NCBI GenBank assembly: GCA_947629905.1
Contig: CANRFM010000014.1
Location: 1 to 56,344 of the forward strand
DNA from: an uncultured Clostridia bacterium
GTDB lineage: Bacteria; Bacillota; Clostridia; Oscillospirales; Ruminococcaceae
Reading direction: 5' to 3'
DNA: 56,344 nucleotides
The notes under the pieces were generated by a model. That model was given only the letters and a program-made list of their open reading frames with translations, did no database searches and was not told where the DNA came from. Shown piece by piece: positions 54,480 to 56,344 of this stretch; positions within the stretch are counted from its first letter, which is position 1; each line of letters opens with the position of its first letter. A program made the position numbers and the translations under genes.

Positions 54480-54603
54480 GGTGAAATCCTCTTTTCTCCG
54501 CAGTTCATCACTCCGCCGCCCGGCTGCTGCGGACAGACCGGCGCTGCATCTGTATGTATTATACCACACTCCGGAAAAAATTTCAACACTTTTCAGAAAA
54601 AAT

Positions 54604-55326
54604 TTATAAATTTTCTGTCAGGTACATCAAAATAGCCAAGGCAGCGGTCGGTGCTGTTTCACAGCGGAGAATGCGTCTGCCCAGCCACACCCGGTAAATG
54701 CCGGCATTTTCCGCCTGCAGCGCCTCCTCAGCGGAGATACCGCCCTCACTGCCGATGAACAGACCCACACGCTTCACGCCCGCAAGCGGCACATCCCCGA
54801 ATCGTCTGCCGCCCTGTTCCTCGTAAAGCATCACGGCAGCATCCTGCTGCTGCATAGCGGCAAGCGCTTCCTGCCATGAAAGCAGCGGCGTGACCTCCGG
54901 GATGATGCCCCTGCCCGACTGCTTGGCGGCGGAGAGGGCAATTTTTTGCAGGCGCTGCTGTTTCCGTGCAAAGTCCGCAGCGGTCGGTCTTGCCACGCAG
55001 CGAGCCGTCAGGACGGGTACAATGCGGAAAACGCCCAGCTCTACGGTTTTCTGGACAATCTCGGCAAGCTTGTCCTGCTTTGGAACAGCCTGAAAGAGTG
55101 TCACCTGAACAGAAGGTTCCGCAGCGCAGGGCTGCACGGAAAGGGGCTTGAGGAAAACGGCATCTTCCGTGATGCGGGTGATCTCGCACTGGTAATCCAT
55201 TCCGCAGGCGCACACGGTCAGCGGTTCACCGGGCTTCATCCGGAGGGAACGCCCGATGTGCCGGGCATCCTCTCCTGTGAGGACGATCTCCTGCATGGTG
55301 GCGTTCTCTGTAAAAAATCTTGGCAT
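54604..55326 (-). CDS. rsmE: 16S rRNA (uracil1498-N3)-methyltransferase
   Basis: A 240-residue SPOUT methyltransferase that modifies U1498 of 16S rRNA. The PUA-like N-terminus has ARHIGRSLRMKPGEPL. The knot carries PKQDKLAEIVQKTVELGV, LFIGSEGGISAEEA and LGRRILRCETAPTAALAIL, all diagnostic. Length is normal. The ATG lies just downstream of a palindrome-rich promoter next to the toxin-like array. Confidence 0.95.
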   Translation of the reverse strand: MPRFFTENATMQEIVLTGEDARHIGRSLRMKPGEPLTVCACGMDYQCEITRITEDAVFLKPLSVQPCAAEPSVQVTLFQAVPKQDKLAEIVQKTVELGVFRIVPVLTARCVARPTAADFARKQQRLQKIALSAAKQSGRGIIPEVTPLLSWQEALAAMQQQDAAVMLYEEQGGRRFGDVPLAGVKRVGLFIGSEGGISAEEALQAENAGIYRVWLGRRILRCETAPTAALAILMYLTENL

Positions 55327-55356
55327 GGTATCACTTCCTATGGTATACTATTGTAT

Positions 55357-55386
55357 ACTATACCATATTGTACCGGATCTTGTCAA
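55357..55386 (-). promoter_or_regulatory. Promoter of rsmE
   Basis: On the minus strand TTGACA (55381-55386), 18 bp, TATAGT (55357-55362). The -35 box and the bases next to it are the same as in the antisense promoters of the array, so rsmE appears to use the left border copy of that repeat. Confidence 0.7.
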
Positions 55387-55417
55387 GCATTTTTCCGGCG
55401 GATCTGCGGAAAAATCG

Positions 55418-55446
55418 TTGACAAATGCCGGAATTTGTGTTATACT
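55418..55446 (+). promoter_or_regulatory. Sense promoter, unit 1
   Basis: TTGACA (55418-55423), 17 bp, TATACT (55441-55446). The predicted transcript start is at about 55453, in AGAGCACACC. Confidence 0.88.
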
Positions 55447-55513
55447 ATGTTCAGAGCACACCTGAAAACGGTAGGCGGCGAATCCTGCTCCCTTGAAAAA
55501 GGGGGTGAAATTC

Positions 55514-55627
55514 ATGGTGATTTTTGACATTGTTTGTAAGATTATCACAACGTGCGCAAGCATCGTTTCTATAATCAAGACAGTGGCAGAAGTACTTACT
55601 TCTGATCATGATGAAAAAAGGAAGTAA
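55514..55627 (+). CDS. Small hydrophobic peptide, type I toxin-like, unit 1
   Basis: A 37-residue peptide starting MVIFDIVCKIITTC, continuing through a single membrane-spanning stretch and ending TSDHDEKRK. A hydrophobic helix with a charged C-terminus is the hallmark of type I toxins such as Fst and TxpA. AGGGGGTG lies ten bases before the ATG. A leader of about 60 nt (with CCTGAAAACGGTAGGCGGCG) precedes it. Convergent antisense RNA from 55743 would pair with its 3' end. A small bacteriocin or holin-like peptide is the alternative. Confidence 0.75.
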   Translation: MVIFDIVCKIITTCASIVSIIKTVAEVLTSDHDEKRK

Positions 55628-55713
55628 CCGCCCAGCTGATACCTGAGCGGTTACTGTTTACTTAAACAGTAGCATAAGGGAGCAGCCGTCAAAACGTTTG
55701 ATGGTGTGCTCTT
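55614..55713 (-). ncRNA. Predicted antisense antitoxin RNA, unit 1
   Basis: On the minus strand TTGACA (55743-55748), 17 bp, TATAAT (55720-55725) drives a transcript starting near 55713 with AGAGCACACC. The hairpin at 55623-55655 (GTAACCGC/GCGGTTAC) followed by CC and six T (55614-55619) would end it after about 100 nt. It overlaps the last codons and 3' region of the peptide mRNA. Confidence 0.72.
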
Positions 55714-55719
55714 TCTATT

Positions 55720-55748
55720 ATTATATCACGTATACCGGGCTTTGTCAA
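55720..55748 (-). promoter_or_regulatory. Antisense promoter, unit 1
   Basis: Consensus -35 TTGACA and -10 TATAAT with a 17-bp spacer, facing the peptide gene. Confidence 0.88.
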
Positions 55749-55780
55749 GCATTTTTTGCGGCGGATTTGCGGAAAGATTG

Positions 55781-55809
55781 TTGACAAATACCGGAATTTG
55801 TGTTATACT
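55781..55809 (+). promoter_or_regulatory. Sense promoter, unit 2
   Basis: TTGACA (55781-55786), 17 bp, TATACT (55804-55809); same leader as unit 1. Confidence 0.88.
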
Positions 55810-55877
55810 ATGTTCAGAGCACACCTGAAAACGGTAGGCGGCGAATCCTGCTCCCTTGCAAAAGGGGGTGAATGTTC

Positions 55878-55985
55878 ATGGTTTTTGATTTGATTTGTAA
55901 AATCATCGGCTTATGCTCCGGCATTGTGTCGATTGTCAAAGCAATCATGGAAGTACTTACTTCACATCATGAAAAAAGGAAGTAA
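55878..55985 (+). CDS. Small hydrophobic peptide, type I toxin-like, unit 2
   Basis: A 35-residue paralogue of the unit 1 peptide, starting MVFDLICKIIGLCSGIVSIV and ending TSHHEKRK. The charged end, the Cys-Lys-Ile-Ile core and the EVLTS segment are conserved, while the middle has changed with mostly conservative replacements, which argues that it is translated. AGGGGGTG lies upstream; an in-frame ATG at 55872 would sit too close to it, so 55878 is chosen. Confidence 0.75.
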   Translation: MVFDLICKIIGLCSGIVSIVKAIMEVLTSHHEKRK

Positions 55986-56069
55986 CCGCCCAGCTTGCTA
56001 CTTTGGGCGGTTACTAAACACGTAACCAACTACGGGAGCAGCCGTCAAAACGTTTGATGGTGTGCTCTT
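55972..56069 (-). ncRNA. Predicted antisense antitoxin RNA, unit 2
   Basis: TTGACA (56099-56104), 17 bp, TATAAT (56076-56081) on the minus strand starts a transcript near 56069, again with AGAGCACACC. The stem AGTAACCGCCC/GGGCGGTTACT (55981-56015) followed by six T (55972-55977) would end it. About 98 nt. Confidence 0.72.
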
Positions 56070-56075
56070 TCTATT

Positions 56076-56104
56076 ATTATAGCACGTATACCGGGCTTTG
56101 TCAA
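56076..56104 (-). promoter_or_regulatory. Antisense promoter, unit 2
   Basis: Consensus promoter with a 17-bp spacer, equivalent to that of unit 1. Confidence 0.88.
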
Positions 56105-56136
56105 GCATTTTTTCCGGCGGATCTGCGGAAAGATCG

Positions 56137-56165
56137 TTGACAAATGCCGGAATTTGTGTTATACT
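56137..56165 (+). promoter_or_regulatory. Sense promoter, unit 3
   Basis: TTGACA (56137-56142), 17 bp, TATACT (56160-56165), followed by the conserved leader up to GCTCCC at 56212. Confidence 0.88.
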
Positions 56166-56243
56166 ATTTTTTAGAGCACACCTGAAAACGGTAGGCGGCG
56201 AATCCTGCTCCCGGAAATGAAAATGGAAGGGAGGGAACACGTT

Positions 56244-56344
56244 ATGGAATGGAATGAGTTTTTTAACTTCATTATTATAATCCGCCTTTCTGCGAAAGGC
56301 ACCGATGGGGTTATGAAAAGGCACTTTCGCTGTTGTAATATTTG
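56244..56344 (+). CDS. Partial reading frame under the unit 3 leader
   Basis: An open frame of at least 33 residues that runs off the window. It begins MEWNEFFNFIIIIRLSAKG and is unlike the unit 1 and 2 peptides, although it too has a short hydrophobic stretch. GGGAGGG lies ten bases upstream. It could be a different small peptide controlled by the same leader, or a chimera made when unit 3 was disrupted. The function is unknown. Confidence 0.5.
   Translation, partial: MEWNEFFNFIIIIRLSAKGTDGVMKRHFRCCNI

Follow-up and report, generated by a model that had tools for sequence, protein, structure and literature searches.

A tandem array of candidate type I toxin-antitoxin modules, read as a divergent TxpA/RatA-like branch, in an uncultured Clostridia bacterium

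We analysed a stretch of 56,344 nucleotides (the window), which is the whole of contig C14 in the draft genome of an uncultured Clostridia bacterium (2.0 Mb, 40 contigs). Its right end carries two complete repeat units and the 5' part of a third, adjoining a minus-strand gene that we take, from its sequence, to be rsmE (Table 1). The direct-repeat copies follow each other with a period of 363 bp and then of 356-357 bp. Each complete unit is made up, in this order, of a sense promoter, a leader, a strong ribosome binding site, an ORF of 35-37 codons ending in KRK, and an antisense promoter that faces it. Units 1 and 2 have the same 43-nt leader, and the leader of unit 3 is 98% identical to it. 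In unit 2, the ATG at 55878 lies at a better distance from the ribosome site than the start at 55872. The mRNA of a unit appears, from the terminator scan and the fold, to pass the hairpin shared with the antisense RNA and to reach a second one; in unit 1 the mRNA 3' end doubles as 3' hairpin and as template of the antisense 5' end. At 55339-55367, in the gap that separates rsmE from the array, we noted an almost perfect palindrome of the type TATGGTATACTAT, which overlaps promoter-like sites on both strands.

Table 1. Features of the array and its left neighbour (window positions).
Feature	Position	Strand	Remarks
Gene presumed to be rsmE	54604-55326	-	
Unit 1 sense (toxin) promoter	55418..55446	+	TTGACA-17-TATACT, 11/12 consensus
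Unit 1 mRNA 5' leader	55453..55492	+	holds the 5' arms of the long-distance pairing
Unit 1 leader 5' arms	55453-55462; 55474-55479; 55486-55492	+	AGAGCACACC; GGCGGC; TGCTCCC
Unit 1 ribosome binding site	55500..55507	+	predicted local pairing with leader CUCCC run
Unit 1 toxin-like ORF	55514..55627	+	37 aa, hydrophobic, ends KRK
Unit 1 antisense RNA	55614..55713	-	about 100 nt; exact ends inferred from sequence
Unit 1 antisense hairpin	55655-55623	-	13 bp; terminator scan; tail TCCTTTTTTC, T run over last toxin codons
Unit 1 mRNA 3' end	55678..55712	+	arms GGGAGCA, GCCGTC and GGTGTGCTCT pair with leader
Unit 1 antisense promoter	55720..55748	-	TTGACA-17-TATAAT, 12/12 consensus
Unit 2 sense promoter	55781..55809	+	11/12 consensus
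Unit 2 mRNA leader	55816..55855	+	repeat comparison, fold
Unit 2 toxin-like ORF	55872..55985	+	37 aa; 35 aa from ATG at 55878; ends KRK
Unit 2 antisense RNA	55972..56069	-	promoter and hairpin; ends inferred from sequence
Unit 2 inverted repeat	55981-56015		exact 12 bp; adjoins A run (T run on minus strand)
Unit 2 antisense promoter	56076..56104	-	TTGACA-17-TATAAT, 12/12 consensus
Unit 3 sense promoter	56137..56165	+	11/12 consensus
Unit 3 mRNA leader	56173..56212	+	98% identity to unit 1 leader, 43 nt
Unit 3 toxin-like ORF, 5' part	56244..56276	+	MEWNEFFNFII...; lost before contig end; longer relative in L041

Promoter-like sites numbered seven between 54800 and 56344, against a mean of 1.8 (sd 1.3) in 50 shuffles, and the leader pattern (at most two mismatches) occurred three times in the window and never in 100 shuffles. 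An initial annotation, made from the sequence, had described promoters, frames, hairpins and repeats in tandem, and all of them are present at this place, including the two hydrophobic peptides with a charged tail and the two consensus antisense promoters. It had also claimed that the antisense RNA would end at a hairpin followed by a T run. The terminator scan listed such a hairpin for unit 1; that of unit 2 is absent from the list, and there the inverted repeat and its A run point to the same kind of end. The announced third unit exists as a 5' part alone, cut by the contig end. It departs after about 56276 from its relative L041, a unit with an altered sense promoter region that our pattern extraction missed. 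The last 68 bases of the window (56277-56344) match other parts of the genome only partially and over short lengths, and could stem from a chimeric assembly or from an insertion into the toxin gene. Contig C1 ends in a similar unmatched stretch within the same toxin type.

Elsewhere in this genome, contigs C1 and C13 bear homologous units, and a DNA match was found in 17 of the 38 genomes of the genus, many of the matches being short. From five of these (G000, G024, G035, G036, G037) we extracted 25 units, of which 21 are complete and four run into contig ends. The antisense promoter is present in 21 of the 25, the remaining four being cut by contig ends, and its match to consensus was better than that of the sense promoter in eight cases, equal in five and worse in eight. 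G035 has an array at the corresponding place, next to rsmE (the RsmE proteins share 97.9% identity over 240 aa). There (L040, G035:C4, 978-1466) the first unit lacks its toxin half, which leaves an antisense gene by itself beside rsmE, an orphan antitoxin RNA, and one complete unit follows. Copies appear to have been gained and lost.

A scan of genome contigs with the leader pattern, from which the records of the window's own genome may be excluded, returned 15 stretches. Eleven came from Lapin-012, Lapin-024 and Lapin-025, labelled uncultured Clostridia, and from RUG11230, an uncultured Ruminococcus; the names of these assemblies suggest gut samples. The other four stretches (L058, L061, L064, L065) belong to unrelated bacteria; over the 400 bases inspected they lacked a promoter-leader-ORF layout, and they were taken as chance matches. 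The scan of viral contigs with the leader pattern found nothing.

The ORFs evolve as proteins. In the largest peptide group (10 units) we counted 456 synonymous and 477 nonsynonymous differences over 856 and 3350 sites, which gives a pN/pS of 0.27 over all pairs, pairs that are not independent and whose last codons overlap the antisense RNA. The ratio was 0.48 in a seven-member group including one outlier peptide, and 0.00 and 0.21 in two pairs. Several peptide types are carried on one RNA framework within the genus; the window type and the largest genus type align as one family. In the unit at L043:2703-2963 the toxin-like ORF stops ahead of the usual KRK end, and this is possibly a shortened or decaying copy. 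None of the window and genus peptides reached a family cut-off in Pfam or NCBIfam, Fst included, which agrees with the earlier statement that these peptides match none of the known families. A PDB profile search with the window-type peptides returned no match.

For the sense RNAs of units 1 and 2, the minimum-energy fold (-103 and -101.6 kcal/mol; z about -7.6) pairs the initial 40 nt with the terminal 35 nt. In unit 1 the upstream/downstream duplex reached -54.2, far below the local-shuffle mean of -34.2 (sd 4.6, n=500) and yet not below every shuffle (lowest -55.5); that of unit 2 (-64.1) lay below all local shuffles. All 21 complete genus units have 21-32 predicted pairs between leader and 3' end. 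In alignment A1, two rows of which are misaligned in the leader, the three pairing blocks had 94.6% of cells paired (92.8% in shuffles), 13 cells changed on both sides (3.2, sd 1.9, in shuffles) and five pairs with both-side changes (1.7 in shuffles). The covariation score was 0.107 against 0.070 (none of 500 shuffles as high; 0.019-0.060 for slid versions), with no excess of further pair types (10 against 10.7).

We extended this comparison to 100 distinct units, 17 from the genus and 83 from the family (104 before removal of duplicates; 10 of the 93 family units with an ORF were dropped, their mRNA start being unrecognisable). The duplex between a leader and its own tail averaged -20.0 kcal/mol, against -13.2 with swapped tails, and none of 10,000 permutations was as low. 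The cognate tail was within the best 10% for 70 of the 100 units. At least eight pairs joined the first 40 to the last 60 nt in 80 of 94 folded units, the other 14 being without end pairing. A clear match between sense and antisense leaders is missing in 18 of the 100 units. The first two positions that follow the CGG of the leader were both paired with the tail in 43 of 93 units (permutation mean 27.5, maximum 37 in 5000).

Since the sense leader is repeated at the start of the antisense RNA, complementarity between the mRNA ends could be a by-product. The units would then be modules as described here, in which the shared leader is a common 5' element or a product of gene conversion. This account is compatible with the best explanation and would remove its 5'-3' step; we consider it unlikely, though less so than any of the alternatives discussed below. 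In its favour, the two RNAs start alike, which alone makes the mRNA ends complementary. Against it stand the isolated differences between these leaders, which mostly keep G-U pairing: 15 are compatible with G-U (13 T in sense with C in antisense, two G with A), three give A-C (no C with T, three A with G) and eight are transversions, i.e., 15 against 3 (p = 0.004), in units that are related, so that the cases are not fully independent, and with a filter (three matches on each flank) chosen after a first count. That count, over whole leader segments, gave 32 G-U, 35 A-C and 65 transversions, and was uninformative, since the segments extended into the loop.

The ribosome site is predicted to pair locally. 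It does so with the CUCCC run just upstream in 17 of the 21 genus units, the hairpin being absent from the minimum-energy fold in the other four, and its exact complement was found upstream in 89 of 114 leaders from the genus and the family, against 40.3 with shuffled letters. The median predicted accessibility of the site was 0.00 in the full-length, 0.00 in the 3'-trimmed and 0.01 in the antisense-bound mRNA, except that in two units it was open in all three states (0.67-0.80). An opening of the ribosome site by trimming or by antisense binding, which we considered, is not supported by these nearly unchanged medians. It is the leader alone that opens, from 0.21 unpaired in the full-length mRNA to 0.46 and 0.49 in the trimmed and antisense-bound forms. 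The leader might be a landing site for ribosomes, closed by the pairing of the ends. In hok/Sok and AapA/IsoA, as outlined in PMC6733600, the full-length toxin mRNA is shut by 5'-3' pairing and inert until its 3' end is trimmed. Prediction and covariation indicate the same closing of the 5' and 3' mRNA ends here. In the predictions, by contrast, the ribosome site is masked by a local hairpin, rather than being sequestered by the 3' end and freed by trimming.

To follow the RNA beyond the genus we used R1, a covariance model of the 3' part built from 19 sequences. It matched 113 of 396 family genomes (49 of 126 genera) at E <= 0.001 and, at E <= 0.0001, 85 of 394 order genomes (46 of 169 genera) and 20 of 398 phylum genomes, four of them from the order; these genome samples overlap, the E-values are rough, and most matches were not examined singly. 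Two distant matches, L187 and L188, look false or toxin-less. On the minus strand of the window R1 gave three weak matches inside the array (28.8, 19.8 and 18.2 bits). In family genomes the copies of this RNA chassis are often in tandem, with differing peptides. One large array (L145, G162:C92, 550-3786) has eight R1 matches in about 3.3 kb, three on one strand and five on the other.

Among 115 distinct R1 hits, which are the best-scoring and not random matches, weak or cut hits being excluded (and L110 left out of one of the two underlying locus sets), 93 hold in their first part the end of a small ORF that has a ribosome site; the other 22 are without a good ORF. A 19-residue stretch with a mean hydropathy of at least 1.6 was found in 80 of these 93 peptides, and at least two K or R among the last three residues in 92, a basic tail that is partly fixed by the conserved RNA beneath.

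Some copies of the chassis are linked to known toxins by the peptides that they encode. Five of 20 peptides of relatives scored above the Hol_Tox cut-off (PF16935, 23.3 bits), ten of the scanned peptides having been chosen partly by appearance: L095 (25.3), L181 (42.7) and L186 (24.6), found first by the RNA model, and L197 (33.3) and L202 (23.5), found by a Hol_Tox search. In 148 family genomes that search gave eight matches at E <= 0.01, one of them above the cut-off; as a control, it matched in 3 of 14 genomes (B. subtilis, T. maritima, L. lactis). Five of the eight (L197, L200-L203) overlap an R1 hit on the same strand, with 24.5 to 54.4 bits. Of the other three, L198 and L204 lie in long ORFs, and L199 (39 aa) has no R1 hit at its ORF. 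In the window's own genome there was no Hol_Tox match at E <= 0.01. The window and genus peptides all stayed below the Pfam cut-off, and we therefore do not call them Hol_Tox members. Profiles of the window-type and Hol_Tox-type peptides aligned with an hhalign probability of 45 over 23 columns.

Searches of phage and plasmid collections with one Hol_Tox-type peptide of a relative led to further loci; another such peptide found none. Two plasmid loci annotated as putative holin-like toxin (L214 and L215, Paenibacillus and Shouchella) show, by eye, a related leader motif, a hairpin at the ribosome site, a small ORF and a complementary 3' end, and an unannotated locus (L213) has the same layout by eye. 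The latter lies in Brevibacillus phage Jimmer2 (10660-12137), where a small ORF resembling a Hol_Tox peptide stands between two annotated phage genes, with complementary flanks. Two of the three were matched weakly by R1 (E 0.0004 and 0.006). The upstream/downstream duplex lay below all 200 shuffles in L213 and L214, and not in L215. These loci encode other peptides than the window, and no second copy was seen in the short stretches examined.

Taken from its sequence, each unit is very probably a type I toxin-antitoxin module. The general layout of type I systems, a small hydrophobic ORF with an antisense gene overlapping its mRNA, is found here at the sequence level. This was already the reading of the initial annotation; it is still the best one, and selection on the peptides, the covarying 5'-3' pairing of the mRNA and the Hol_Tox peptides of relatives on the same chassis speak for it. 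The annotation had likened the layout both to TxpA/RatA and to Fst/par. The first comparison stands as the nearest kind, the second fails because the repeats of the array are inverted. The kind to which TxpA/RatA belongs is described as having a hydrophobic peptide, an antisense RNA overlapping the 3' end and a strong ribosome site, TxpA itself being 59 aa long (PMC8167048), and SprG1/PepG1 of Staphylococcus as discovered through homology to txpA/RatA (PMC8309996). The window units resemble TxpA/RatA and BsrG/SR4 of B. subtilis in their small hydrophobic peptide, in their strong ribosome site and, judging from the positions of promoter and hairpin, in an antisense RNA covering the 3' end of the toxin mRNA. 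They differ in having shorter peptides than TxpA, none of which attains a family cut-off, and in being arranged as tandem arrays whose peptides are diverse. The Rfam RatA model (RF01776) matched neither 54600-56344 nor any other part of the genome, and was silent in all 14 control genomes as well. Between 54600 and 56344 Rfam gave three matches up to E = 5, all to eukaryotic RNA families and far below their gathering scores. We took them as chance, including the top one, to a microRNA model (31.1 bits where 245 are required, E 0.0002). The modules probably work like the TxpA/RatA kind and descend from it.

Type I modules of C. difficile (CD2517.1-RCd8 and others) are also described as convergent, overlapping pairs of a small toxin gene and an RNA, several per genome, with toxins without homology to those of other bacteria (PMC6563280). 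The available part of that description does not mention tandem arrays on one chassis. A literature search, at the level of titles and the beginnings of abstracts, brought up no paper on such modules in Ruminococcus relatives or on a covariance model for them; T1TAdb or Fozo 2010 may contain a description.

The peptides might instead form an antisense-controlled family of small membrane peptides other than toxins, e.g., regulatory or envelope-stress peptides made in small amounts. The window peptides have no match among the known toxin families, their toxicity is itself putative, and the genus peptides are conserved, all of which suits this account. On the other hand, Hol_Tox peptides of relatives ride on the same RNA chassis, and double repression, many copies and variable peptides would better suit a toxin. 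We hold this account to be improbable. Still less credible is an array of small bacteriocins or of lysis peptides resembling phage holins, in which the antisense RNA would be incidental. The peptides are indeed short, hydrophobic and basic-tailed, and two peptides of relatives had weak PHROGs holin hits (E 0.13 and 0.0076). Yet the antisense promoter is kept in every extracted genus unit that contig ends have left whole, the array DNA and the unit 1 peptide found no match in the phage and plasmid collections, and the large ORFs to the left, read by eye, do not resemble genes for lysis, immunity or export (on the right the sequence is truncated).

The least likely alternative, a module of the Fst/par type, resembles the units in having a toxin mRNA and an antisense RNA that converge, and a small peptide whose tail is charged, but it is ruled out by the orientation of the repeats, which in par of pAD1 are described as direct, with a common bidirectional terminator (PMC8167048), and here are inverted (I4-I7); no Fst-family toxin was hit in Pfam or NCBIfam, and the mRNA seems to run on beyond the shared hairpin. 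The 5' elements being inverted repeats in the DNA, the two RNAs begin similar, and not complementary. From its sequence, the array is thus best read as a divergent, array-forming branch of TxpA/RatA-like modules, and not as Fst/par.

Anatomy, conservation, coding selection, covariation of the mRNA ends and the Hol_Tox link are seen in the sequences; from them we infer how a TxpA/RatA-like unit of this kind might be transcribed and controlled. An mRNA of about 270 nt from the plus strand would encode a short membrane-inserting peptide with a basic tail. This full-length mRNA would be inert from birth, its first 40 nt being paired with its last 35 nt and its ribosome site kept in a local hairpin by the CUCCC run. 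An RNA of about 100 nt from the minus strand, spanning the final codons and the entire 3' end, would anneal to the mRNA, removing the 3' partner of the leader and exposing the message to degradation by RNase III. When antisense synthesis stops, or when the 3' end of the mRNA is trimmed, the leader would become free and ribosomes could load; the peptide, a presumptive toxin, would then damage the membrane or envelope. For the activation step we see an even chance.

Type I modules are hard to find because their toxins are tiny and diverse. Here R1, the model of the shared 3' part, picks out candidate modules throughout an order, and peptides that were not recognised are tied to the Hol_Tox family through a shared RNA. 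The interaction between the two mRNA ends is a testable prediction. It may be, with the balance at present level, that the RNA chassis, with its paired mRNA ends, hairpin at the ribosome site and antisense gene, is the conserved, heritable unit of a toxin-antitoxin superfamily spanning the Bacillota, within which different toxins are carried and diversify, with tandem expansion in these Clostridia; such modules could then be found by RNA structure even where their toxins are unrecognisable.
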